Assembly: GCF_032884065.1 (NCBI RefSeq)
Contig: NC_088868.1
Span: 32,944,390-33,008,389 of the forward strand
Origin: Artemia franciscana
Taxonomy: Eukaryota > Arthropoda > Branchiopoda > Anostraca > Artemiidae
DNA: 64,000 nucleotides
Direction of reading: 5' to 3'
Shown: one piece after another, positions 1-61,640 of the stretch
How the letters are laid out: every line of letters begins with the position of its first letter
Position numbering within the stretch: position 1 is the first letter of the stretch
Position numbers and translations under genes: made by a program
The notes under the pieces: generated by a model
The model's input: only the letters and a program-made list of their open reading frames with translations
What the model was told of the DNA's origin: nothing
The model's database searches: none

Positions 1-551
1 AAAACTCCTTGGCGCTCGTCAGTGCATACAAGGGATCAATTCCTCTTCCTCCAGCGTAATACAAAGATCTGATGGACTTATGCCATACTCTTGTACTCCC
101 CGGGACTTTCCACGAGTACTTCGCTGCTCTTCCTTCATCGGAATCAACTAGGGACGCCTTGGATGAGTCAGACGTCGAAGAAGAGGATCTAGAAGATCTT
201 TAAGTGTGTATCCGTTCTAATTTGAGTTCCTCGTATTCTTTTAGCTGAATAACAAAAGAAAAAACTTGAATCCTGTTGCACTTTATATGTTTGTATTAAA
301 ACTCTTATCTGACACCAGGCTAAAATTTCTGTTACAAGTAGATGTCGTATCTGCCTTGTAGGCAAATCGGTTTAACTTAGCAAAAACCTCTGTTAACCAG
401 CGGAAAGCCCATATTTTACATACTCAGAGTTTGACTGAACATTACATTTCCCTGCTGATTCTCCATTTCGAACAGCTTAGCAAACAGTTTTTGTCGAATA
501 TCTCAGAAGTGTAAAAATGTCAGTTACGACCTTTAGGCGTAACAGCGACGA
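1..551 (+). mobile_element. Partial DUF7869-like DNA transposon (left-arm copy)
   Basis: Second copy of the element at 22676-25117, in opposite orientation and cut by the window edge. It holds the 3' end of the transposase-like gene and one terminal inverted repeat at 515-551. That 37-bp repeat is the same sequence as at 25081-25117. Immediately outside it (552 on) lies Rep-A in the same relative position as in the right arm, so the insertion predates the inverted duplication. Confidence 0.85.
3..200 (+). pseudogene. C-terminal tail of transposase-like gene
   Basis: The frame beginning at base 3 reads into an in-frame TAA at 57-59. It then continues for 47 codons of plausible protein with a leucine-rich stretch, a PGTFHEYFAALP segment and an acidic tail (DVEEEDLEDL) before a TAA at 201-203. 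The right-arm copy carries the same internal stop. The acidic C-terminus and continuity suggest the stop interrupts an originally longer protein; read-through cannot be excluded from sequence alone. The rest of the gene lies outside the window. Confidence 0.6.
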
Positions 552-4994: not shown

Positions 4995-5083
4995 CGGAAG
5001 AGCCAAGAGCTCATATGGCATGAGTTCTGGCAAAATTCTAAGAATAAATAGATTGATTTAAAAGGAAAATCAGAGGCTTAATC
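4995..5083 (-). repeat. Rep-B terminal fragment
   Basis: The block from 'gagctcatatggcatgag' to 'aaaatcagaggcttaat' is the reverse complement of 26795-26872, where it adjoins a longer Rep-B copy. It directly abuts the hairpin head of Rep-A at 5087. Confidence 0.6.
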
Positions 5084-5086
5084 AAA

Positions 5087-5945
5087 CAGTTCGTGGTAAC
5101 GAACTGTAGTAAGGAGCGACCCGGCTCAATAGTAAACGAAACTCTAAAAAACGGAATTTTGATGCTAAACGATACATCAAAAGAATCGAATTTTCACACT
5201 GATTCTAAATATATAAGTTTCAATTAATTTAGTCTTTGTCATCAAAAGTTACAAGCCTGAAAAAATTGCCTTATTTTGGAAAATCGGGGGAAACATCACC
5301 TAAAAGTCATAGAATCTTAACGAAAATTACACCATCGCATTCGGCGTATCAGAGAGCCCTAAAACTAAAGCTCCTATCTAAAAAAATGTGGAATTTTCAT
5401 ATTTTTTGCCAGAAGACAAATCACGGGTGCGTGTTTATTTGTTTGTTGTTTTTTTTCCCCAGGGGTCATCGTATCGACCAAGTGGTCCTAGATTGTCGCA
5501 AGAGCGCTCATTTTTACGAAAATGAAAAGTTCTAGTGCCCTTTTTAAGTGATAAAAAATTGGAGGGCACCTAGGCCCCCTCCAACACTCATTTTTTTCCA
5601 AAAGTCAACGGATTAAAATTTTGAGATAGCCATTTTGTTCCGCATAGTCGAAAACCATAATAACTATGTCTTTGGGAATGCCTTACTCCCTCACAATCCC
5701 TGGGGGAGGGGCTGCAAGTTACAAACTTTGACCAGTGTTTACATATAGTAATGGTCATTAGGAGTGTACAGACGTTTTCAGGGGGATTTTTTGGGTTTGA
5801 GGGGTGGGGTTGATGGAAGGGGGCTATGTGGTAGGATCTTTCCTTGGAAGAATATGTCATGGGGGAAGAAAAATTCAATGAAAAGGGCGCAGGATTTTCT
5901 AGCATTACTATAAAAAAACAATGAAAAATAAACATGAAAACTTTT
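5087..5945 (+). repeat. Rep-A dispersed repeat, near full length
   Basis: Starts with the hairpin CAGTTCGT-GGTA-ACGAACTG and contains all the blocks listed for this family, ending near 'aacatgaaaactttttt' before a hairpin MITE. Compared with 22010-22675 and 29917-30775 it is collinear with substitutions and small indels. ORFs within it (5236-5535, 5588-5950) are not supported as proteins. Confidence 0.8.
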
Positions 5946-6250
5946 TTCAATTGGAAGTAAGGAATAGCATTGAAATTTAAAACGAACAGAGATTATTACG
6001 CATATGAGGGGTTCTAAAAATACTTTAGCATAAAGAGCGAGGTATTTAGGAGGAGATAAATAAATACCTTGCTCTTTATGCTAAAGTATTTTTAGTAATT
6101 TCAACTATTTTTTCAACGGCCTTTTTGATTCAGGGGTCATTCTTAAAGAATTGGGACAAAACTTACAATTTATTGTAAAGAGCGAGGTATTATCGAGGGT
6201 ACAAACCCCCTCGTACACATAATAAAAATATAAGAATATAAAAGTTTGTT
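5946..6250. mobile_element. Hairpin (foldback) MITE with internal near-perfect stem
   Basis: Carries the MITE head (aactgaaagtaaggagc-like, then 'aaaacgaacagagattatt') and the block 'cgctctttacgctaaag' in both orientations. At 6014-6048 and 6061-6095 there is a 35-bp inverted repeat with one mismatch and a 12-bp loop. Related elements: 7170-7432, 25313-25552, 30773-31015, 32525-32840, 33023-33338, 43977-44250, 61395-61640, 61940-62192. Confidence 0.7.
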
Positions 6251-18234: not shown

Positions 18235-19422
18235 ATGAGGCAATGCATGCTAACTATGCAAGGAAAAGCTAAAGAACATAACACAATTAGTTCCCTCTCG
18301 GGGATCATACAACTCAGTAGGCTTGGGAAAGAGCTACTGAATGAACCGTACATTAGAAATCAATTGATCAATTCAGGGGGTTTAGCATGTATTATAAAAC
18401 TAAAGCTCAGCTTTCTGTCTCCGTCATGCTATTTCTCTGATGAACATTTATTGGCTATAAGACTTGGTAAAACCGTATTGATAAACACTTACCTGCCTCA
18501 TGATGGGAAGAATATGACATCGCTTGATAAATTTTCCAAAGCATGCTCTAGTTTGAAAACTCTCCTTCAAAGTATAAGCAAAAATGGGTACGAATTTATT
18601 ATTATTGGAGATATGAACACTGATGTAAAACGTAATTCTGCTCGTACTGTGAACCTACTTGATTGTCTCCCTGATTACAGAATAATTGCGAAGGATCTAC
18701 CTTTCTCGTATGTGCATAATTCCGGCAGCTTATCGGATATTGATCACGTGATTTGTTCCCCGTTCATTACATCTTCAACAGTGCATGTCCACGAAGATGA
18801 GCAAGATATTGATCACCTTCCTTTATCGCTATGCTTTTCGATTAGAAAAGATAGTACTGACCAGGCTTGTGCTCCTGCCTCTAAATGGTTTGTGCGGAGT
18901 AATTGGAAAAATGTTAATATGCCATTATATATTTCAACCCTGGCCATTCTCCTTGGTTCTTTACGTGTACCTTTTCATCTTCTCCAGCTGAGTGTTAGTC
19001 CTACTAAAAGTAATTACGATCTGAATCATTATTACAACCAAATCGTGTGGTGTTTAAAACGCGCTGAGGAGGCTGCTGTCCCTCAGGAGCGAGTGAGGAA
19101 AAGTACAAGGAAACCAATCTGGTCGTGTGACCCTGAGCTGAAAAGTGTGAAAAATAAAGCCAAATTGTGGCTGCGTATATGGGTTGCTAACGGTCGACCA
19201 TTAGCTAGGAATGTGTTTGAAATAAAACAAAAAACTAAGCGTGAGTTTAAGAAATGTCTGCGATCGAGCCGTTACAAAGGGTTAGACTGTCATACCAGTA
19301 AGAAAGATTGGGACAAAGTCATTAATTCAGCTAAATTAAATAACTCGACAAATCCTAATTGCCCCATTACGCCTTCTGCATGGTCTGACCATTATTCAGA
19401 TATATTTTCCAAAATGAATTAT
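18235..19422 (+). pseudogene. LINE ORF2 endonuclease region, truncated at duplication boundary
   Basis: Long open frame (about 395 codons up to the junction) with an apurinic-type endonuclease domain: LINTYLPHDGKN, then FIIIGDMNTD (catalytic GDxN-type motif), SDIDHVIC and the terminal IDHLPLS (SDH-like motif). A basic linker (KPIWSCDPELKSVKNKAKLWL) then leads toward where reverse transcriptase should start (ITPSAWSDHYSDIFSKMNY). At 19423 the sequence switches exactly to the right arm of the inverted duplication and the frame ends at 19455 in foreign sequence. The ORF is otherwise uninterrupted, so it is relatively young. The first residues of the endonuclease domain are missing upstream or out of frame. 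Confidence 0.85.
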
Positions 19423-21228
19423 GGTATTAAGGTGAAACTCTTAGGGATCATTTAGGGGGAGTCTTAGTTGAGCGGAAGATCTATGTGCATGCAGGTTCTT
19501 AAAACGGCATGTAAGCAACCATAGGCAGCGCAGCGCTATCATACACACCAATATCAGATAAACTTTTAAGAAGCAAGTGGAAATTAAAAGTTTTTTTTGC
19601 CCTTTTTTAGAGTCAGAAGTGATCGGGGTGAGTCAGCCCTCTCCGCAAGTCCATTAATTTTCAAAACACTTCTAATTAAAATTTTACTCCATTTATTCTT
19701 AGCATAGCGGAACGGTCCAGTGGATCGGTCCAAACTAAATGTTGCATTAAAACTAAATAAAAATTGTGTAATCTGGTTGCCAGTAAGACATCTCAGCAAT
19801 ATCCCAAGAACGACTAAGGCTATTAAACTGAAATTCTCAGGACTACTATGATTACTATTTTTGATCTTACACTGTAACTAAATCGAAAGAGTGTAAGTGT
19901 ATGCGGTTCGTCAAAGAGCATAGAAACCATTTTTTGGGAGAAGGGTATTAAGTCTTATTTTTCAGATGAACTTGAGGAGTTATAAAACTAAACTAAACAA
20001 AGTTATTTGCGTCCAGATTTTGGAAAGGGCGTAGGCCTATACTGCCAAAAAGTGGTTGAAACATTTTCTCCAGCATACAAATAGCAAGTCAAGCTGTGGA
20101 TTCCTATAGAAAAAAACGAAAAGATTTAAAATATTATTCTTCTTCAATGAAAAAGACCATGGTAATAAAAACGAATATAAATTAATGTTAAGACTTTTCC
20201 AAGAAAAAAGTTTTTCAAAGAAGAGTAAAGTGTTCCATTAAACCAAAAAAAAAAAATTACAAAAACAAATTCTATTAATCTCCCAGGCGTAAAACTACCA
20301 CAAAATACTACCAGCAAATTAATAAAACCCAAAAACAAATAAATTAAAATGAATAACCGATTCAAACTGAAAACGATCAAAAATCATGACACCCCCATAC
20401 CTTCCGAACACCAGAACATAATTTGTGCTTTACTGAAAAAAAAAAAAAAAAAACAACAGAAAAGCGTGAACTGATGGTTTAATATTCGTATAAAGATATC
20501 TATTTATTAAAGTCTTAAATTTTAAAAAATGAAAACATTTATATGTATTTAGTCACCAGTAAAGTGTAGACTATCTTTGTCTTTAGAAGACATAGGGGTT
20601 GCTAGCCCTACTCATGTTAAAGCTTACTAGTTTTGAGTTTGATATGTTTCATGTTTATTGACAGCACATTCATGTTTTTATACGTTTCACGTTTTTTGTC
20701 AACGCGTTTATGTTTCATTACATCTGCAAAAGTTTTTGCTTAGAACAATAAGCAATAAATGGGACTGCAGAAACAAGAATTGTTTGCATATCTCATTTTT
20801 GAGATTGAATAGTCAGATTAAAAAACAAAAAAACATTATTAGGAGTAACTACATGTTATAACATTTAGTCATGTTTAGTCAATATCTAGTCATTTTGGTA
20901 ATTTAACATTAATCATTTTGATATTTGTTATTCTAACTAATATTTTGGTTATTTTCAGGACCCAAAGTTTATGGGCAAAAAATCTCCTATTCAATGATTG
21001 ACCCGAAACTTTACAGTTTCCAACGGAAGATAGTTACTATCCATAACAGATTGAGGACTAAAGTACAGCCCCCTGCATCAGATATGCTCGCAATAGTAGG
21101 TTTTCTCTTTATATTATTGTAGCTCTATATATCAAAATACATTAATTCATTTCAAATTACATTTTTCTTCCTTTCTTCTCTAATTAGTAGTTAAAAAAAA
21201 ACATCCATCATCCGATTGTCTGGCTATA

Positions 21229-21865
21229 GATAGAGAGATAGATAGATGTATTTCAAAAACCCATGGGCCATATACACACAAAAATATAAATAAATAACAA
21301 ACAAGCAAGGAAATTAACAACAGTACAAATTACAAACACCCACAAAAAAACAGAATTCAACGCAAAAAGTGCCTAATCTAACAACAAAAGAAAATAGTCA
21401 TATAAAACTTTTTCTTCTTAATAAGGATTTATCTATATATACTCCCACTCGAAATATTGTGGTTGGGTTACTATTTTGTAGAATACCCGGAAGCATCAAA
21501 TTAATCCCATGAAAATAAATTTCCCGTAAATCCAAGAGCACCGGGCATTCCCGGAGAAAATGATCCAAGTCTTCATCATCATCATTACAAAGGGGACAAA
21601 TATACCGCCAATCAGGACCGACTATCATTTTATTTTTGTCGAAAGTTTTTTGTCTGTTCGGGATTGGAAGACAATTCGCCCTAAGCTGGATCCAACGACG
21701 TAGAATCATAGCTGGTAAATTAAATTTAAAATAAACTTCCTCTCCAAAACTAGGTTTTGCCTGATTATAATGTTGTAGGGTTGTAGAATCTAAAACCAGC
21801 CCTCGCCAATGCTGAACTTCCTGACTCTCTAATATAAATCGTACCTGGCTTTCTAAATTTGTTGG
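21229..21865 (-). mobile_element. 5'-truncated LINE with GATA-type tail, insertion in duplicate A
   Basis: Minus-strand ORF2 C-terminus (21709-21398; CPLCNDDDEDLDHFLRECPVL, an intact CCHC-like knuckle), then a 3' UTR (gtgtatatggcccatggg) and a microsatellite tail of imperfect GATA/CTAT units at 21229-21254. Both sides carry TATA (21225-21228 and 21866-21869), a candidate target duplication. The empty site is preserved at 29779-29784 in duplicate B. Confidence 0.9.
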
Positions 21866-22009
21866 TATATACCAGTAGAATATTTATTATTAAATGCTAC
21901 TGTTTCTATCCACGAAATAATTTTTGCTTCAGGTTTTAACGACTCATTATCGACAAAGTTTTAAGTAATTTTTTTTTTGTGAGTATTGGTATTAGGCTAT
22001 TTATTGTCA

Positions 22010-22675
22010 AACAGTTCATGGTAACGAACTGTAGTAAGGAACGACCCGGCTTAATAGTAACCAAAACTTAAAAAAAATTGAATTTTTATACCAATAGCTA
22101 CATCAAAAGAATCGCATTTTAATGATGATTTTAAATATATAATTTTCATCAAGTTTAGTCTTATCCATCAAAAGTGACGAGCCTGAGAAAATTTGCCTTA
22201 ATTTTAGAAAATAGGGGGAAATAACCCCTAAAAGTCATAAAATCTGAACAAAAATCATCCCATCAGATTCAGCGTATCAGAGAACCCTTTGTAAGGTTTT
22301 CAAGCTCTTATCTACAAAAATGTGAAATTTTGCATTTTTTACCAGAAGGCAGATCACGGATGCGTGTTTATTTGCTTGTTGTTTTTTTCCCAGGGGTGAT
22401 CGTATCGACCCAGTGGTCCTAGAATCTTGCGAGAGGGCTCATTCTAACGGGAATTAAAAGTTCTAGTGTCCTTTTTAAGTGACCAAAAATTGGAGGACAC
22501 CTAGGCCCCCTCCCACGCCAATTATTTTCACAAAGTCACCAGATCAAAATTCTGAGATAGCCAGTTTATTCACCGTAGTCAAAAAACCTTATAACTATAT
22601 CCTTGGGGACGACCTACTCCCCCACAGTCACTGTGGGATGGGCTACAAGTTACAAACTTTGACCAGTGCTTAGAT
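22010..22675 (+). repeat. Rep-A, 5' part (split by transposon)
   Basis: Starts with the hairpin head CAGTTCAT-GGTA-ACGAACTG and runs to 'gaccagtgcttagat', where the DNA transposon begins. The remainder of the repeat resumes at 25118. Confidence 0.85.
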
Positions 22676-22712
22676 TCGTCGCTGTTACGCCTAAAGGTCG
22701 TAACTGACATTT
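22676..22712 (+). repeat. Terminal inverted repeat, left end
   Basis: 37-bp repeat, exact reverse complement of 25081-25117. Also present at 515-551 in the left arm. Confidence 0.95.
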
Positions 22713-23023
22713 TTACACTTCTGAGATATTCGACAAAAACTGTTTGCTAAGCTGTTCGAAATGGAGAATCAGCAGGGAAATGTAATGTTTAGTTAAACTC
22801 TGAGTATGTAAAATATGGGCTTTCCGCTGGTTAACAGAGGTTTTTGCTAAGTTAAACCGATTTGCCTACAAGGCAGATACGACATCTACTTGTAACAGAA
22901 ATTTTAGCCTGGTGTCAGATAAGAGTTTTAATACAAACATATAAAGTGCAACAGGATTCAAGTTTTTTCTTTTGTTATTCAGCTAAAAGAATACAAGGAA
23001 CTCAAATTAGAACGGATACACAC

Positions 23024-25038
23024 TTAAAGATCTTCTGGATCCTCTTCTTTGACGTCTGACTCATCCAAGGCATCCCTGGTTGATTCCGATGAAGGAAGAG
23101 CAGCGAAGTACTCGTGGAAAGTCCCGGGGAGTACAAGAGTATGGCATAAGTCCATCAGATCTTTGTATTACGCTGGAGGAAGAGGAATTGATCCCTTGTA
23201 TGCACTGACGAGCGCCAAGGAGTTTTTGTTGGGTGTAATTCTACGTCGCGATTCGTTCACTTTTATGATTGAAAAGTCAGAGTCGTAGTCGTACCTGAAA
23301 TGGATCTCGGTTGGCCGCTCAATCGAGTAGTTGAGCCACTTTATCAAATTCCATTTCACTTGCAGACTTTCCCCACCGGCCCCGTAGGCCCATTTTCTGT
23401 TTTTCAAAATAATGTCAGCAGTTTGCTTGAAGTCCAGCCAAAAACTGTAGTCATCGATCACGTGCACCTTATATGGCTCAGGGTTGGTTCTGGCTATTAG
23501 GCAGACGGTTCTCCAGTTTTCTATAGAAAACACAGGTAAGTGTTTGGCTGCTCTTTCGATGCATGCTGTCCCCTTCCTGCTGAGAATGGCCACTTTCAAG
23601 AAATATATGATTTATTTCTCGGACGTGATGCAGTGTCCGAACAGCATATAAAAATATGGAGGCTACAAACTGGTTTTTTAACTGCCCACAGCAGCCATCA
23701 GTAACAAAATAGAATTTCCTGTAGCTCGTATTCTCTTTCAGAATGTTATACATCAGCGTAGCGACTTCATTGGCGCCTCTTTGCCCTTTCGTCTGGTCCC
23801 AAAGGCTGCAGTGAGCCTCTTTGGTTACCAAGCTAAAAATTGTCATGTTATAAACTGCTAGTTTTCTTTTGTAAAAGATAGGACCGGTCTCTGCTTTGGG
23901 AGTTTCGAAGACTCTTTGTAAGTCCATATTCAGCAACATAGCGCTCTCCAGTCCTTACTCACTGTGCAGAATACCATCTTTTATCGCATTTTTAACTTCG
24001 CGAGCACGCTTTGCTCTTGACTGGTTCTGCTGAAATGACTCAGCCTCATTCTCTTTTTCTCCTTCAGTAATTAAGTAGTATCGGGTGCATGTATGGCATT
24101 GATCCATTCTGGGAGTGTGGAAAGATAAGTTCAAGGATTTTATACATTTTGGACTGGTTAAGTTCAGAGCTTAGATTGAGTCTCGTAAAATATTCCCGAC
24201 AATAGTGCGACTCAACTGCAGGAAAACTGCTAATGTGATCTCTGGCGTAAAGTAACTGATCATCCGTGAGTCTCTTAGAGACTAGAATCTTTGGACTCGA
24301 CTCGTTTCTTCTATCTCTGCCAGCGGTTCCAGTATTGGTTTTGCTCTTGACACATCCAGCAACAAACTTTTCACCAAGCGCCAGAGGTGCCAAGAAAAAC
24401 TTCTTGCACACTTTTTTACAAGTACTATTCAATTCTAATGTGTAACAGAGTGAGTTTTGCCGCCGTGAACTGCTGGCACTTGTCGTTCTCCAACCAACTG
24501 GCTTCTTCGTCACACACTTCGAAACGAACTGTCTCTGTGACTCCATGGAGCCAAACTCCTTGCCTAGCAGCCAGAACCTTTCGAATATAGCTTTTCGAGC
24601 ATCTTGATCAATAGTTTTGTACTCGAGTTTGCATTTGCAACTAAATTCCCTTACTTCTTTTGCTGGAACAACTTTTTGTGTTTTCTGTGCTGTGTATTCT
24701 TGTCCGGCAGCACGTTTCTCTTTCCTGTCAATATAGGTCTCTTTCTTTGTTTTGGGATGTTGTTCTATGTTCCTTCTTTCAACTGATGCCTGATCATCAA
24801 CAACATCCCGTTCTGTGGCAGTCGCTTCTGGAAATGTTGGATCAGGAGCGCTAATGTCTACTTCAATAAAACTTTCCTGATTGGGCGTTTCCCCGTCACT
24901 GTCTGAGCTTGAGCCATCCTTGTCTGGCACCCAATCCTTGTCTTTGGGATCACCATCTGAATCAGATGACAAATCTTCGTCATTGTCATCTTCTATGAGC
25001 CTCCGAAACTCTTCTGTGGTCGCAAACTTGTAGCACAA
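23024..25038 (-). pseudogene. Decayed transposase-like gene (DUF7869-like family)
   Basis: Reconstructed order on the minus strand: acidic N-terminus (SDSDGDPKDKDWVPDKD); CKCKLEY Cys motif; GWRTTSASSSRR; YTLELNSTCKKVCKKFFLAPLALG; a RISSP-like spacer (NESSPKI); HISSFPAVESHYCREYF and KMYKILELIFP; DQCHTCTRYY (in a shifted frame); WDQTKGQRGANEVATLMYNIL; FVTDGCCGQLKNQFVA with a likely catalytic Asp; LESGHSQQEGDSMH; ENWRTVCLIARTNPEPYKVH; acidic C-terminus ending at 23024. Breaks: a frameshift near 24100, a stop near 23957, a frameshift near 23560 and a stop at 23168-23170. No ATG precedes the first block; the frame opens after a TAG. This order matches an invertebrate multi-copy family I associate with DUF7869, which usually lacks an assigned function. 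Its placement between TIRs supports a transposase role. Confidence 0.75.
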
Positions 25039-25080
25039 TATCCTAGGAGTCTAATGTACAGATTAACTCAGTTTCACCAC

Positions 25081-25117
25081 AAATGTCAGTTACGACCTTT
25101 AGGCGTAACAGCGACGA
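25081..25117 (-). repeat. Terminal inverted repeat, right end
   Basis: 37-bp repeat, exact reverse complement of 22676-22712. Confidence 0.95.
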
Positions 25118-25312
25118 TATAGTAATGGTTATTTGGAAGTGTAAGACGTTTTCACGGGGATTTTTAGGTTGAAGGGGGTTTTGAGAAGAGGGGGATGTGT
25201 TGGGGGAGATTTCCTTGGAGGAATTTGTCATGGGGGAAGAAAATTTTCATGAAGGGAGCGCAGGATCTTGTAGCATTATTAAAAAAAAAAGAAAACATAA
25301 ATATGAAAAAGT
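25118..25312 (+). repeat. Rep-A, 3' part (resumes after transposon)
   Basis: Continues from 'tatagtaatggttatttgg' collinearly with 30583-30772, confirming that the transposon was inserted into Rep-A. Confidence 0.85.
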
Positions 25313-25552
25313 TTTTTCAACTGAAAGTAAGGAAAAGCATTAAAACTTAAAACAAACAGAAATTATTACGCATAGGATTGGCTCACCTCCTCATCAATTT
25401 TTTTTTACCGTTTTAAAAAGTAGAGTTAAGAGAAAGAGTCTAACTTTAGCGTAAAGAGCGGGGCGTTGATGAGGAAGCAGCCCCTTTTATATACGAAGTA
25501 ATTTCTGTTCGTTTTAAGTTTTAATGCCGCTCCTTACTTTCTGTTTAGAAAA
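25313..25552. mobile_element. Hairpin MITE
   Basis: Blocks 'caactgaaagtaagg', 'aacagaaattatt' and 'ctttagcgtaaagagcgggg' are repeated in inverted order, ending in 'ctccttactttctg'. It is collinear with 30773-31015. It follows the Rep-A 3' end directly, an arrangement seen at several loci. Confidence 0.75.
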
Positions 25553-26310
25553 CTTGTTTTTTTGTTTAATTATTATTAAGGGTCCATGGACCAGTTTGCT
25601 TACCATGAAAGTTTCACGCCGTGCTGTTTGGAGAAAAATAATATCTGGCCTATTTTAGTGTTTGACGAATCGACACAACCAGCTTTCTTCAAAATGTTTT
25701 TTCCTCTTAGAAAGCATACATACCAAGCAAGTAGCTATTCGATTGGATTAGGGATAAACCGACATTTGCCATATTTCAGGAGTCCCGAATCAAGAGAATA
25801 CTTTTTCAAATAGCTATTGTCTTCGCTTTTAGGCAACCTTTTCAGTGTATTTAAGGTTCCTTGTGTTTATCTACACGCTTTTTAATTTTAAACTACCTTG
25901 ATAAAAATTGTTTACCTAGTTTCAGCTGTCACGTCACAATTTTTTTTTTTGAAATCTCTGGTTTTACTTCAGATCCATCTGGCCTAATCCTGAATGCATG
26001 TCGTGTAAGTTACAGACCTTTCGGAGATGAAAATAAGTTTGAGCTAATTTTTAAGTGTCGCAAACCAATGTAGCTAAACTTAGTTTCAAATTAGATTTAT
26101 GCATAGGTATCTAATTGGCCAAGAAACGAATGAGCTTTTTTTTTAAAGATGATTGGTGCTGATAATTTAAAAATTTTCAAGAAAAAGAGTTGGTTATTTT
26201 TTTGACGAACAAATAAGAGAAAAAATATTATTTTGCACCCTTATCCCTCTCCCCAAGTAATATATATTGAGCTTCCTTACCCCCCCCCCAAAAAAAAATA
26301 CCCTCTGAAA
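25553..26310 (+). repeat. Tail of duplicate A, unrecognised content
   Basis: Closely similar to 31016-31763. It holds a 75-codon open frame (25586-25813, MDQFAYHESFTPCCLEKNN) whose twin is at 31051-31278. The two differ at about 9 codons, many changing the amino acid, so there is no sign of selection for protein. No domain recognised. Confidence 0.5.
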
Positions 26311-26872
26311 ATTAAAAAAGTTGAGGTATGTTAACTTAAGAATGGGTGACCGGATCTTAATGAAATTTGATATTTAGAAGGAACTCATGTCTCAGTGCTC
26401 TTTTTTCAAATCCCGACCAGATTTGTTGACATTGAAAGGAGTTGGAGGGGGAACCGGAAGTCTTAGAAAACGGTCATAAGTGTCATAGATGCATGATTGA
26501 CGTAACCGGACTGAATCCGCTCTCTTTGGGGGAGTTAGGGGTTGGGGTTTGGTGCTTTGGCAATTTTTGTACTTCTGGACGTGCTAGGACGATGAAAATT
26601 GGTAAGTGTGGCAGGGAGCTGCACAATTTGACTTGATAAAGTCGTTTTCCCCAATTAGACCATCTGGGGAACTGAAGGGAGAGGAAAAATTAGAAAATTG
26701 AGGTATTTTTAACTTACGAGTAAGTGATCAGATCTTAATAAATTTTAATTTTTGAAAGAACCTCTTGACTGAGAGCTCTTATTTTAAATCCCGACCGGCA
26801 TTAAGCCTCTGATTTTCCTTTTAAAGCAATCTATTGGTTCTTTGAATTTTGCCAGAGCTCATACCATATGAG
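26311..26872 (-). repeat. Rep-B, inverted copy
   Basis: Reverse complement of the Rep-B family at 7450-8760: 'ggatcttaatgaaatttga', 'caaatcccgaccag', a G-rich tract with 'gactgaatccgctctc', and a second unit with 'gagctcttattttaaatcc'. The end (26795-26872) matches 4995-5083. Confidence 0.7.
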
Positions 26873-27055
26873 CTGAAAACTTCAGTCTGCAACTGCATGG
26901 CAGTTTGGGTTGAGCTGCTAACTCAGATATGGAGCAATCAGAAAGTGCCCAGTGACTGGACGAAAGGAACCATTATTAAGCTCTTCAAAAAAGACGATGC
27001 ACTTGTTTGTGACAACTGGAAAGGTATTAACATAATGTCAATACCTAGTAAACTT
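26873..27055 (+). pseudogene. RTE-like reverse transcriptase fragment
   Basis: Encodes NCMAVWVELLTQIWSNQKVP, then DWTKGTIIKLFKKDDALVCD and NWKGINIMSIPSKLF. This is the start of a reverse transcriptase domain and is clearly related to 49600-49780. It is bounded by Rep-B and Rep-A, so only a short piece survives. Confidence 0.75.
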
Positions 27056-27109
27056 TTTTTGTTTTATATTCACATTATAACACATTTCCCTATTTGTTTT
27101 TGTTTGTTT

Positions 27110-27530
27110 CCATAGGTGATCGAATCAAGTCAGTGGTCCAAGAATATTAGAAGAAAGCTTATTGGAACGGAAATTAAACGTTCTAGTACCCTTTTTAAGT
27201 GACCGAAAAATTGGAGGGCAATTAGGCCACCTCTTCTGCCACTTTTTTCCCAAACTCGTCCGACGAAACTTTCGAGATAGCCATTTTGCATATAATAGTT
27301 GAAGGGCCCAATAATTAGGTGTTTGTGTATAACATGACTCCCTGCCCACAGCCCCAGAGTAAAGGTCTTTAACTTATAAGATTGGCCCACTGTTTACGCA
27401 TAGTAATTAGTATTGGGATGCATGCATACATTTTTGGTTGGGGGGGGGGATTTTATTCTTTGGGTTTTTCCACGGGGAAATTTTCTGTGGGAAGTGAAGT
27501 TACCGGGGAGTGAACTTGTTAGAAGAAACT
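27110..27530 (+). repeat. Rep-A, diverged partial copy
   Basis: Starts mid-repeat at 'taggtgatcgaatcaag' and follows the family through 'ggagggcaattaggcc', 'gagatagccattttgc' and a G-run near 27440. More diverged than the copies in duplicates A and B. Confidence 0.65.
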
Positions 27531-28254
27531 ATTTACTGCAGATATTTGCCAGAATTATTATGCAACACTCTTTTTATATGTCTTGCTTTCTCATTTCCGT
27601 CTCAATTTTACGCACGGAGTGGTTAAGAGTAATTGTCAGGGGTAAATTTTCACTGAGATTTCTAGCCATTGATTCCATGGCTTTTCTACATTTAGTCATG
27701 TCTTGATGCCCGCAACAATTCTATATTAATTCAAAGCCTTTTAATTCATGTCAATTCAATTCAGAGCCCTGAGGAATCTTATGGTGATTGTTAGAGTGAT
27801 ATAATAAAAATGAGGGTCAAATATAAGCAATTACATGAAGAAATGGAATATGGAAAGAAGAAAATAAAGGAGTTACAGGTTAAGCTTTCCATTTTTTGCG
27901 AATAGTTTTTGTGTCTCTCTCCCCTGTGAATTGTCTGTGTACCTATGGGCTTATGTACAAACAGGTAGGGCGGGGGAGGGGGATAAGTTTGAAATGACTA
28001 TGTTCTTGGTTGCCCAGTGTTTGGATAACCTATGGGCATCATGAAAACAGCCATTCATTATGTGTCTGTGATGGAAAAAAATGAAGGACTTTTTAGTTGA
28101 GCACGATGACTTTTTAGCTGAGCACTAAATTAAGGTGAAAAGAGTTTAATTTAAATATAACCGTCGATATAATTAAAAAATTAATTTTTAAATAAATTTC
28201 GAGGTAGTTTAAAGTTTAAATATATTTGAAAATCCAAACCTAAAGTTTTACAAG
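27531..28254. other. No gene seen
   Basis: AT-rich spacer with no recognised domain or family repeat. Confidence 0.4.
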
Positions 28255-28370
28255 TAGTAAAAGGAGTGTCGTGGCTCAATAATAACCAAAACATTTAAAA
28301 AGCAGAAAGTTTGATATCAAGACATATATTAAAAGAATCAGCTTATTATCCTGATTAAATAAATTAAAAG
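28255..28370 (+). repeat. Rep-A head fragment
   Basis: Contains 'aaaggagtgtcgtggctc' followed by 'aataataaccaaaaca' and 'attaaaagaatc', a diverged version of the Rep-A 5' block. Similarity then stops. About 400 bp of unassigned AT-rich DNA follows up to 28770. Confidence 0.45.
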
Positions 28371-29916
28371 GGGTCGATTCTTGTAGGGAAGAGAGGCCCA
28401 TATAACTGGAATCTGATAGTTTAGGCCCAAAAAGTATATCCCAATTCTTCAATTTTTTTCCCTATCCAAATTTTGTCTTCCTTTTTATTTGTTATAATTA
28501 TTGTGTGGAAGACGCACATGTAAATATTTATGTGAAAAATATTTATATGAAGTGTTTTTCTTATCTTGTTCCTCTGTAACAAAGGTGACTAAACTTCGCT
28601 AAAAAGAAAGATGTTTTTTTTTAATTTATCTGAATTATGGTAAATAAACGTAGTAACCTGGGATAGAAGGGTCATCCATCTGTTACAAAAATTTTAAAGT
28701 GAAGTCCATGCAAGTCTGAAATATCTTTAATCTGTTTTTCATTGTGCAACTAAGAAGATGTTTCGTTAGAAGTTTTTGAAAGAAGAGTAAAGTGTTCCAT
28801 TAAACCAAAAAAAAATGACAAAAACAAACTCTATTTATCTTCCAGTCGTACAACTACCACAAAATACTACCAGCAAATAAATAAAACCCAAAACAAACAT
28901 AAATTAAAATGAATAACCGATTCAAAATCAAAAGCATCAAAAATCATGACACCCCCATACCTTCCGAACACCAGAATCTAATTTGTACTTTACTGAAAAA
29001 AAAAAAAAACAGATAAGCGTGAATTGATGGTTTAATATTCGTATAAAGATATCTATTTATTAAAGTCTTAAATTTTTTTAAATGAAAACATTTATATGCA
29101 TTTCGTCGCCAGTAAAGTGTAAACTGTCTTTGTCTTCAGAAGACATAGGGGTTGCCAGCCCTACTCATGTTAAAGTTTACTAGTTTTGAGTTTGATATGT
29201 TTCATGTTTATTGACAGCATATTCATGTTATTATACGTTTCACGTTTTTTGTCAACGTGTTTATGTTTAATTAAATCTGCAAAAGTTTTTGCTTAGAACA
29301 ATAAGCAATAAATGGGACTGCAGAAACATGCATTTTTTGCCAATCTTATTTTTGAGATTGAATAGTCAGATTAAAAAACAAAAAAACATTATTAGGAGTA
29401 ACTACATGTTATAACATTTAGTCATGTTTAGTCAATATCTAGTCATTTTGGTGATTTAATATTAAACATTTTAACATTTGTTATTGTAACTAATATTTTG
29501 GTTATTTTCAGGAGCCAAAGCTTGTGGGCAAAAAATGTCCTATTCAATGATTGACCCCAAACTTTGCAGTGTCCAACGGAAGATAGTTACTATCCATAAC
29601 AGATTGACGACTAAAGTACAGCCCCCTGCATCAGATATGCTCACAATAGTAGGTTTTTTATTTATATTATTGTAGCTTTATATATCAATATACACTAATT
29701 CATTTCAAATTACATTTTTCTTCCTTTCTTCTCTTATTAGTAGTTAAAAAAAAAACATCCATCATCCGATTGTCTGGTTATATACCAGTAGAATATTTCT
29801 TATTAAACGCTATTGTTTCTATCCACGAAATAGTTTTTGCCTCAATTTTTAACGACTCATTATCGACAAAGTTTTAAGTCATTTTTTTGTGAGTATTGGT
29901 ATTATTTATTGTCAAA

Positions 29917-30772
29917 CATTTCGTGGTAACGAACTGTATTAAGGAACTTAATAGTAACCAAAACTTCAAAAAATTGAATTTTTATACCAATAGCTACATC
30001 AAAAGAATCGCATTTTAATGATGATTTTAAATATATAGCTTTCATCAAGTTTAGTCTTATCCATCAAAAGTGTCGAGCCTGAGAAAATTTGCTTTATTTT
30101 AGTTAATAGGAGGAAACAACCCCTAAAAGTCATAAATTCTGAACAAAAATCACACCATCAGATTCAGCGTATCAGAGAACCCTTTTGCAAAGTTTTCAAG
30201 CTCTTATCTACAAAAATGTGGAATTTTTGTATTTTTTGCCAGAAAGCAGATCACGGATGCGTGTTTATTTGTTTGTTGTTTTTTTTTTTTTTTCCCTATG
30301 GGTGATCGTATCGACCCAGTGATCCTAGAATCTTGCAAGAGGGCTCATTCTAACGGAAATTAAAAGTTCTAATGCCCTCTTTAAGTGACCAAAATAATTG
30401 GAGGGCACCTAGGCCCCCTCCCACGCCAATTATTTTCCCAAAGTCACCGGATCAAAATTCTGAGATATCCAGTTTATTCACCGTAGTAAAAAAAACCTTA
30501 TAACTATATCTTTGGGGACGAATTACTCCCCCACAGTCCCCGTGAGATGGGCTACAAGTTACAAACTTTGACCAGTGCTTACATATAGTAATGGTTATTT
30601 GGAAGTGTAAGACGTTTTTACGGGGATTTTTAGGTTGAAGGGGGTTTTGAGAAGAGGGGGATATGTTGGGGGAGATTTTCTTGGAGGAATTTGTCATGGG
30701 GGAAGAAAATTTTCATGAAGGGAGCGCAGGATTTTTTAGCATTATTAAAAAGAAAGAAAACATAAATATGAA
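29917..30772 (+). repeat. Rep-A, uninterrupted copy
   Basis: Complete equivalent of 22010-22675 plus 25118-25312. It has a degenerate hairpin head (ttcgt-ggta-acgaa), a longer poly-T tract near 30282-30294, and the 'caaactttgaccagtg' block followed by 'cttacatatag'. Confidence 0.85.
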
Positions 30773-31015
30773 AAAGTTTTTTCAACTGAAAGTAAGGAAA
30801 AGCATTAAAACTTAAAACAAACAGAAATTATTACGCATAGGATTGGCTCACCTCCTCATCAAAATTTTTTTATCGTTTTAAAAAGTAGAGCTAAGAGAAA
30901 GAGTCTAACTTTAGCGTAAAGAGCGGGGCGTTGATGAGAAAGCAGCCTCTTTTATATACGAAGTAATTTCTGTTCGTTTTAAGTTTTAATGCCACTCCTT
31001 ACTTTCCGTTTAAAA
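30773..31015. mobile_element. Hairpin MITE
   Basis: Collinear with 25313-25552. Inverted halves are centred near 30890. Confidence 0.75.
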
Positions 31016-32254
31016 AACCTTGTTTTTTATTTAATTATTATTAAGGGTCCATGGACCAGTTTGCTTACCCTGAAAGTTTCACGCCGTGCTGTTTGGAGAA
31101 AAATAATAGCTGGCCTATTTTAGCGTTTGACGAATCAACACAACCTGCTTTCTTCAAAATGTTTTTTCCTCTTAGAAAGCATACATACCCAGCAAGCTGC
31201 TATTCGATTAGATTAGGGATAAACCGTCATTCGCCATATTTCAAGAGTCCCGAATCAAGAGAATACTTTTTCAAATAGCTATTGTCTTCGCTTTTAGGCA
31301 ATGTTTTAAGTGTATTTAAGGTTCCTTGTGTTTATCCACATGCTCTTTAAGATTAATCTAACCTGATAAAAATTGCTTACCTAGTTTCAGCTGTCATGTC
31401 ACAATTTTTTTCGAAATTTCTGGTTTTGCTTCAGATCCATCTGGCCTAATCCTGAATGCATGTCGTATAGTTACAGACCTATCGGAGATGAACATAAGTT
31501 TGAGCTAATTTTGAAATGTCGCAAACCAATGTAGCTAAACTTAGTTTCAAATTAGATTTATGCATAGGTGTCTACTTGGCCAAGAAACTAATGAGCCTAA
31601 TTTTATGAATGATTGGTGCTGATAATTTAAAAGTTTTCAAGAAAAAGAGTTGGTTATTTTTTTGACGAACAAACAGGAGAAAAAATGTTATTTTGCACCC
31701 CTATCCCTCTCCCCAAGTAATATATATCGAGCTGCCTTACCCTCCCAAAATACCCTCTGAAAGTTTCAACTTGATCCTCTTATTCGTTGCAGAAATTTTT
31801 AAGGGTCAGCTAATATGATAGCCTGGGTGACTACTACCTTTTGTTTTTTCCTTACTACTTCACTTTGAACAATCGTGCTAATAATTCAAAAACCTCTATG
31901 TGGATTGAAGACATACATTGTTCGGCCTCCATATATTACCACTCAAAATAAAAAAACAATAGACCCCTTTGACCAATTCTCTTATCTTTGCCCCTCCCCC
32001 AAGGTAAAATTTGAGGTCCACTTGACTCTGCGATATCTTTGGTCTCCCAAGCCGTCAGTGTGAAATTGCGTATATCCTATTTTGTTGACATGGACAAATC
32101 TAGCGTCTTCTCATCAATTTAAGTTACTTTACCTTGAATTGATTCTAGTCCTGCTGGGCCTTAAAGTGAGACAACTTCCAGGCAGATTTGAAATTTAGTA
32201 TGTTTGCAAGGTATGAACTTAAGTCATGCTCAGATTTTTCTAGCTAAAACTGCT

Positions 32255-60608: not shown

Positions 60609-61390
60609 ATCAAACAGTTTATGGTAACAAATTGTAGTAAGGAGCGACCCGGCTCAATAATAACCGAAACTCTTAAAAACGGAATTTTATATACCAATAG
60701 TTACAACGAAATAATCGAATTTTAATGCTGATTTTAAATATATAAGTTTCATCAAATTTAGTTATACCCATCAAAAGTTACGAGACTGAGAAAATTTGCC
60801 TTATTTTAGAAAATAGGGGGAAACACCCCTTAAAAGTCATAGAATCTCAACGAAAATCACACCATCAGATTCAACGTATCAGAGAACCCTATAGTAGAAG
60901 TTTCAAGCTACTATCTACAAAAATGTTGAATTTTGTTTTTGTTTTTTGCCGTATTTTTTCCATGGGTGATCGTATCGACCCAGTGGTCCGAGAATATCGC
61001 CAGAGGACTCATTCTGACGGAAATTAAAAGTTCTAGGGCCTTTTTTAAGTGTCCAAAAAAATGGAGGGCACCTAGGCCTCCTCCCACGCTCATTTTTTTC
61101 CTAAATTCACCGCATCAAAATTCTGAGATAGCCATTTTATCCAACTTAGTCGAAAAACCTAATAACTATGTCTTTGAGGACGACTTACTCCCCCATAGTC
61201 CCCGTGGGAGGGACTGTAAGTTACAAACTTTGACCAGTGTTTACATGTAGTAATGGTTTTTGGGAAGTGTATTGACGCTTTCAGGTGAATTTTTTGGTTG
61301 GGGGAGGTTGAGCGATTGTGGGGAAAAGTTTCCATGGGGGAAGAGAATTTCCATGAAGGGGGCGCCGAATTTTCCAGCATTTAAAAAATA
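60609..61390 (+). repeat. Rep-A, near full-length copy
   Basis: Head 'cagtttatggtaacaaattg', then 'aaggagcgacccggctc', 'gggggaaacacccc', 'ggtgatcgtatcgaccc', 'ggagggcacctaggcc', 'caaactttgaccagtg'. Followed at once by a hairpin MITE. Confidence 0.85.
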
Positions 61391-61394
61391 TGAA

Positions 61395-61640
61395 AAACTT
61401 TTCAACTGAAAGTAATGAGGAGCATTAAAACTTAAAACGAACAGAAATTATTACGCATATGAGGGGTTCACTTCCTTCTAATACCTCGCTCTTTACGCTA
61501 AAGTATTTTTAGTATTTTCAACTATTTATTCTACGGTCTTTGTGATTCAGGGGCCATTCTTAAGGAATTGGGACACAATATAAGCTTTAGTATGAAGAGC
61601 GAGGTATTCACGAGGGGGCGAACCCCCTCATATAAGTAGT
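61395..61640. mobile_element. Hairpin MITE
   Basis: 'caactgaaagtaatgagg', 'gaacagaaattattac', 'ctcgctctttacgctaaag', and inverted 'ctttagtatgaagagcgagg' with 'gggggcgaaccccc'. Confidence 0.7.

Follow-up and report, generated by a model that had tools for sequence, protein, structure and literature searches.

A decayed inverted-repeat transposon in Artemia franciscana and the probable transposase role of its DUF7869 gene

We analysed a 64-kb stretch of the 1.27-Gb Artemia franciscana genome (64,000 nt, "the window"). With a probability of about 0.88, the window contains a decayed DNA transposon of the DDD/E type, copy A, and its only large gene, a member of the DUF7869 family, encodes the transposase. 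The supporting evidence consists of elements bounded by terminal inverted repeats (TIRs), target site duplications, multi-copy spread, empty sites, open reading frames in copies other than that of the window, a predicted fold and conserved acidic residues. The DUF7869 gene is thus very probably the enzyme that moves its own elements. If this is true, a Pfam domain of unknown function gains a function, i.e. that of a transposase catalytic domain, and DUF7869 genes can be annotated as transposon-derived instead of as host genes of unknown role.

Structure of copy A and its gene remains

Copy A (subfamily 1, minus strand) is a 2,442-bp element at positions 22676-25117, delimited by its TIR pair and by comparison with two-ended homologous copies elsewhere. 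The perfect 37-bp TIRs that an earlier note had described for a 2.44-kb element are present at both ends: the left TIR (22676-22712, plus strand), on the 3′ side of the gene, is complementary at 37 of 37 positions to the right TIR (25081-25117, minus strand) on the 5′ side. With up to three mismatches allowed, the 37-mer has three matches in the window, compared with none in 100 shuffles. The third match (515-551, minus strand) marks one end of another copy, copy B, most of which lies upstream of the window.

The gene is encoded on the minus strand and is disrupted, leaving at least four open stretches spread over three frames. A 328-aa stretch (24067-25050) contains the acidic N-terminal part and the start of the conserved region, and a second stretch (23958-24170) lies between the N-terminal part and the putative catalytic domain. 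The DUF7869/RNase H-like core follows at 23481-23954, with the motifs MDLQ, TDGCCGQ and GDSMH carrying the first, second and third D, respectively; its frame breaks ahead of the E, and the C-terminal part past the break is found at 23168-23608. The core piece matches the Pfam family PF25273 (DUF7869) with an E value of 8e-5 and 22.7 bits, which is under the gathering cut-off of 26 bits, in keeping with the decayed, DUF7869-like gene of the earlier note. An alignment revealed a deletion of about 680 bp in copy A, close to the 5′ end of the gene, where copy B has kept the sequence. Judged by the protein of a related locus (L009), the start of the gene was probably lost with this deletion, and the broken frame suggests that copy A is inactive.

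The insertion site and copy B

Copy A is inserted in a copy of a repeat, Rep-A, and an uninterrupted version had been claimed to exist 5.5 kb away. This empty site was recovered at 29779-31765; it has 91.7% identity to the joined flanks of copy A, and no break interrupts it at the insertion point, which is near 30584. When aligned with the flanks, two further Rep-A copies, which are diverged (5082-6007 and 60610-61476), are likewise continuous at this point. The very short duplication that had been proposed is also found: as it stands, it is 1 bp (T) at copy A. Because the rule for the family is 2 bp (see below), copy A has probably lost one base at this site.

Of copy B (C6:32941822-32944940, 3,119 bp), only one end lies in the window (1-551, minus strand, including the TIR at 515-551). 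The surroundings of copy A (19413-29930) recur in inverted orientation around copy B as three aligned pieces with 97.6-98.5% identity, the far end of this repeat being set by the extent of the compared sequence. Two separate transposition events were rejected as an explanation for the two copies, as the inverted surroundings match over about 10 kb at this high identity. The inverted match therefore points to one insertion that was later duplicated, and the window would hold a single old insertion, afterwards duplicated and eroded, and not two jumps.

The common flanks of copies A and B, which arose by inverted duplication, could be taken to mean that the inverted repeats are a product of chance or a duplication artefact, and that no transposon is present. 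However, many unlinked copies have different flanks and target duplications, and empty sites exist, so that we regard this reading as already refuted.

The family across the genome

The earlier note had taken the insertion in Rep-A as direct evidence that the whole family moves as a transposon. A single local insertion is no proof for a family, but the genome-wide copies do support the conclusion. DUF7869 is a multi-copy family in this genome. Subfamilies were grouped by eye from protein matches, and 150 of 370 candidates were scored. The protein identities are about 75-100% for subfamily 1, that of the window, about 60% for subfamily 2, about 35% for subfamily 3 and 29% for subfamily 4, with others in between.

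Gene copies without the TIRs would have indicated a chance association. Among the matches listed, all 32 of the 32 subfamily 1 gene loci (at least 75% protein identity) have at least one TIR end within 4.6 kb, and 23 of the 32 have both ends. No gene match of at least 75% was present near 13 of the 70 subfamily 1 end matches used (again among the matches listed). These 70 were taken from 80 end matches; in the ten omitted ones, the match is confined to the shared TIR, and most of them represent the other end of a copy that had been counted. As no more than 40 candidates were scored per end search, the locus and end counts for subfamily 1 are lower bounds, i.e. the true values are at least this high.

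Subfamilies 1, 2 and 4 are discrete TIR elements. In subfamily 1, L009 has a 752-aa frame within a 2,693-bp TIR element. In subfamily 2, the elements L023-L026 have lengths of 3.26-3.33 kb, and their TIRs begin with TCGACGTTGTGCC. The subfamily 4 elements L029 and L030 (about 3.86 kb) begin with CGGCCCTCC, are 99.35% identical across 3,867 columns and have a gene with an open 849-aa frame. The two end searches for subfamily 4 gave 34 and 35 matches, and among the matches listed all but one per search are 96-100% identical. Judged by its sequences, subfamily 4 is young and spread in a recent burst. Several of its copies have both near-identical ends and the uninterrupted 849-aa frame, making the proposed transposase role directly testable. 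For subfamily 3 (L027, L028, L071-L076), one side ends with ..AGTGTAGCG; neither a matching TIR nor a left boundary was found, and the upstream sequence is common to three extra copies.

The gene had been described as the sole cargo of the element. It is indeed the only large gene, but it is probably the transposase itself and not cargo. A passenger gene in elements that are moved by another transposase would be conceivable insofar as the transposase role of DUF7869 rests on a predicted activity. However, no second frame of at least 200 aa is listed in L009, L023 or L029, gene and TIR occur together at every one of the listed loci described above, and the predicted fold and conserved acidic residues (see below) fit a transposase. 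We therefore consider a passenger role very improbable.

Target site duplications

Duplications were scored with both tips located or assumed. In subfamily 1, a 2-bp duplication is present at 16 of 23 sites; for comparison, 20,000 shuffled pairings gave a mean of 4.2 and a maximum of 12. In subfamily 2, the value is 12 of 14 sites (20,000 shuffled pairings: mean 4.1, maximum 11). A longer duplication of 3 or 4 bp hidden behind the 2 bp was rejected, as such matches are found at 0 of 23 and 0 of 14 sites, respectively. The duplicated dinucleotide in subfamily 1 is TA in 5 of the 16 cases, and the others are AA, TG, TT, CA and CT.

Several loci were left out of the subfamily 1 count, i.e. L004 (identical to the insertion of the window copy), L017 (its flanks repeat those of L001), L013, L014 and L021 (both ends not located) and L022 (no element). 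L018, where the pair spans a tandem arrangement, was counted as a miss. Five of the seven misses have altered tips, while the tips are intact in L016 and in the window copy. The subfamily 2 misses comprise L102/L103, with no tip at the expected place, and L024, with a damaged end.

Subfamily 4 differs in the length of its duplication. Twenty-two sites were tried, and an exact 4-bp duplication was found at all 21 scorable sites (shuffled pairings: mean 1.3, maximum 9), none of which has a 5-bp match. L043/L044 was unscored, as its right end was not found.

Target choice and a shared point in Rep-A

The 28 sites with 2-bp duplications have the palindromic consensus A-Y-A-T|A-T-R-T, which is strongest at the A/T immediately outside the duplication (0.89). 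In raw frequencies, the 21 subfamily 4 sites have the Y/R at position 2.5 in common with the 2-bp sites (0.71 and 0.75, respectively) and tend towards A/T at position 3.5 from the centre (0.43 and 0.52, respectively). The A at 1.5 from the centre is absent from the subfamily 4 sites.

Comparison of the insertion sites with Rep-A revealed that three of 58 compared sites use the same point, which is ATAT at 30583-30586 in the empty copy. The three insertions belong to subfamily 1 (the window copy), subfamily 2 (L110/L111) and subfamily 4 (L041/L042), and the central TA of the ATAT is the subfamily 2 duplication. The stagger thus differs about one dyad at this shared point, a coincidence to which the abundance of Rep-A may contribute. 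The right flank of L061/L062 matches Rep-A from 30162, and a few other flanks have short matches elsewhere in Rep-A. Related transposases with a 2-bp and a 4-bp stagger on the same target point offer a handle on the control of cut spacing.

Predicted fold and acidic residues of the DUF7869 proteins

Two proteins score above the PF25273 cut-off, i.e. the intact L009 protein with 30.5 bits and the subfamily 4 protein with 45 bits, while the values for subfamily 2 (25.4 bits) and subfamily 3 (18.9 bits) are under it. In an alignment of 23 members (A1), 17 match PF25273 at E≤5, the best value being 1.2e-11. The earlier note had raised the question whether the D/E residues fit a DDE/RNase H fold. 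Two predicted models of DUF7869 proteins (predictions, not solved structures) indeed have an RNase H-like core, with integrase and mariner cores as the best structural matches. The acidic residues fit this fold: in the predicted models, strand 1 and the last core helix carry one each, and a further one lies at strand 4. The conserved positions are D261 (16/18), D336 (18/18), D379 (17/18) and E386 (16/19); an H located between the last two acidic positions of the D-D-D/E is also conserved. The third acidic residue of the triad would be either D379 or E386. PF25273 has no function in Pfam; according to the models, a large part of the RNase H-like core of this likely transposase falls within it.

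The DUF7869 proteins gave no match at E≤1 in a sequence search of the PDB and none at E≤0.001 in a viral fold library, and six proteins gave a single weak match in PHROGs. One scan of viral contigs with a single subfamily 3 protein, a query reaching close relatives only, found no relative.

Proposed mechanism

The N-terminal parts of the DUF7869 protein would bind the TIRs and related subterminal repeats. Including the TIRs, L009, L023 and L029 have 3, 5 and 11 copies of the TIR core, respectively, none of them more than about 425 bp away from an element end, and 50 shuffles per element gave a mean of 0. These copies are plausible candidates for binding sites. In CACTA elements, the TIR motif is repeated in subterminal regions.

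The RNase H-like domain (D-D-D/E) would then cut the ends and join them to a short, partly palindromic target, with a stagger of 2 bp in subfamilies 1 and 2 and of 4 bp in subfamily 4. At the shared target point, both staggers would centre on the same dyad.

The earlier note had assigned the family to the cut-and-paste type. The TIRs and the short duplication agree with this; excision we infer from the DDD/E-type fold, since the data show insertions only. For the same reason, a copy-out transposase, which would insert a new copy and leave the original element in place, has to be considered. The predicted fold, however, is common to Mos1 and the mariner-derived SETMAR, which are cut-and-paste enzymes, and most eukaryotic TIR transposons excise. 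A copy-out mechanism is thus unlikely, and cut-and-paste is preferred.

Comparison with known superfamilies

Tc1/mariner transposons duplicate only TA at their targets, whereas the duplications of the DUF7869 elements are not limited to TA, which sets them apart from Mos1 and SETMAR. From the retroviral integrase cores they differ in the lack of a PDB sequence match (see above) and in being TIR DNA elements, not retroelements. The CMCT clade (EnSpm/CACTA, Mirage, Chapaev, Transib and others) is described in PMC12730594 as having 2-5 bp duplications, C(2)C and H(3-4)H motifs between the second D and the last E, and in most cases 5′-CA..TG-3′ termini. The DUF7869 elements fall within this range of duplication lengths, and their subterminal TIR-motif repeats resemble those of CACTA. 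However, the C(2)C and H(3-4)H motifs were not seen in alignment A1, read by eye, and the ends are TCGTCG.., TCGACG.. and CGGCCC.. instead of CA..TG.

An alternative is that the DUF7869 elements are members of a named superfamily, with Sola as the most plausible one, so that DUF7869 would merely be the Pfam name for a catalogued transposase; we rate this as a serious possibility, somewhat short of even. Members of the Sola superfamily have 4-bp target duplications and a DDD transposase. The 4-bp duplications of subfamily 4 and an acidic triad that is possibly DDD (with D379 as the third residue) resemble this description, and PMC3627910 reports 4-bp AT-rich duplications for Sola2 elements. In contrast, subfamilies 1 (that of the window) and 2 duplicate 2 bp, and Sola was placed in a clade with the RNases H of retroelements in PMC3985635, whereas the DUF7869 models are closest to integrase and mariner cores. 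Sola is the best lead, but the DUF7869 elements are not filed there, because the subfamily of the window deviates from the 4-bp rule, because of the grouping in PMC3985635, and because the comparison with Sola is by description only.

Among the papers searched, none names DUF7869, and no title or abstract listed describes such a family; repeat catalogues such as Repbase may contain it under another name. The identification of DUF7869 as a transposase catalytic core and the split between 2 and 4 bp look new. We tentatively propose, as a view held at clearly less than even odds, that the DUF7869 elements form an undescribed eukaryotic DDD/E superfamily, in which the stagger has varied (2 or 4 bp) and the kind of target dyad has stayed the same, with three subfamilies at one point of a host repeat.

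Apparent tandem arrangements

Repeated subfamily 1 ends with the same outer flank were seen at L001 (2667 and 6160) and L018 (5056 and 7900), and these sequences suggest local duplication within or around the elements. Three subfamily 4 left ends are spaced by 10,595 bp at G000:C18:4934962-4960013 (L043, L044), where a single right end was matched (4959932-4960013), apparently representing a gene-carrying tandem array. At G000:C17:33248475-33268693, four equal-scoring DUF7869 matches follow one another at intervals of about 6.6 kb; every match contains one TGA and one TAA, and the four are apparently tandem repeats of a broken DUF7869 copy.
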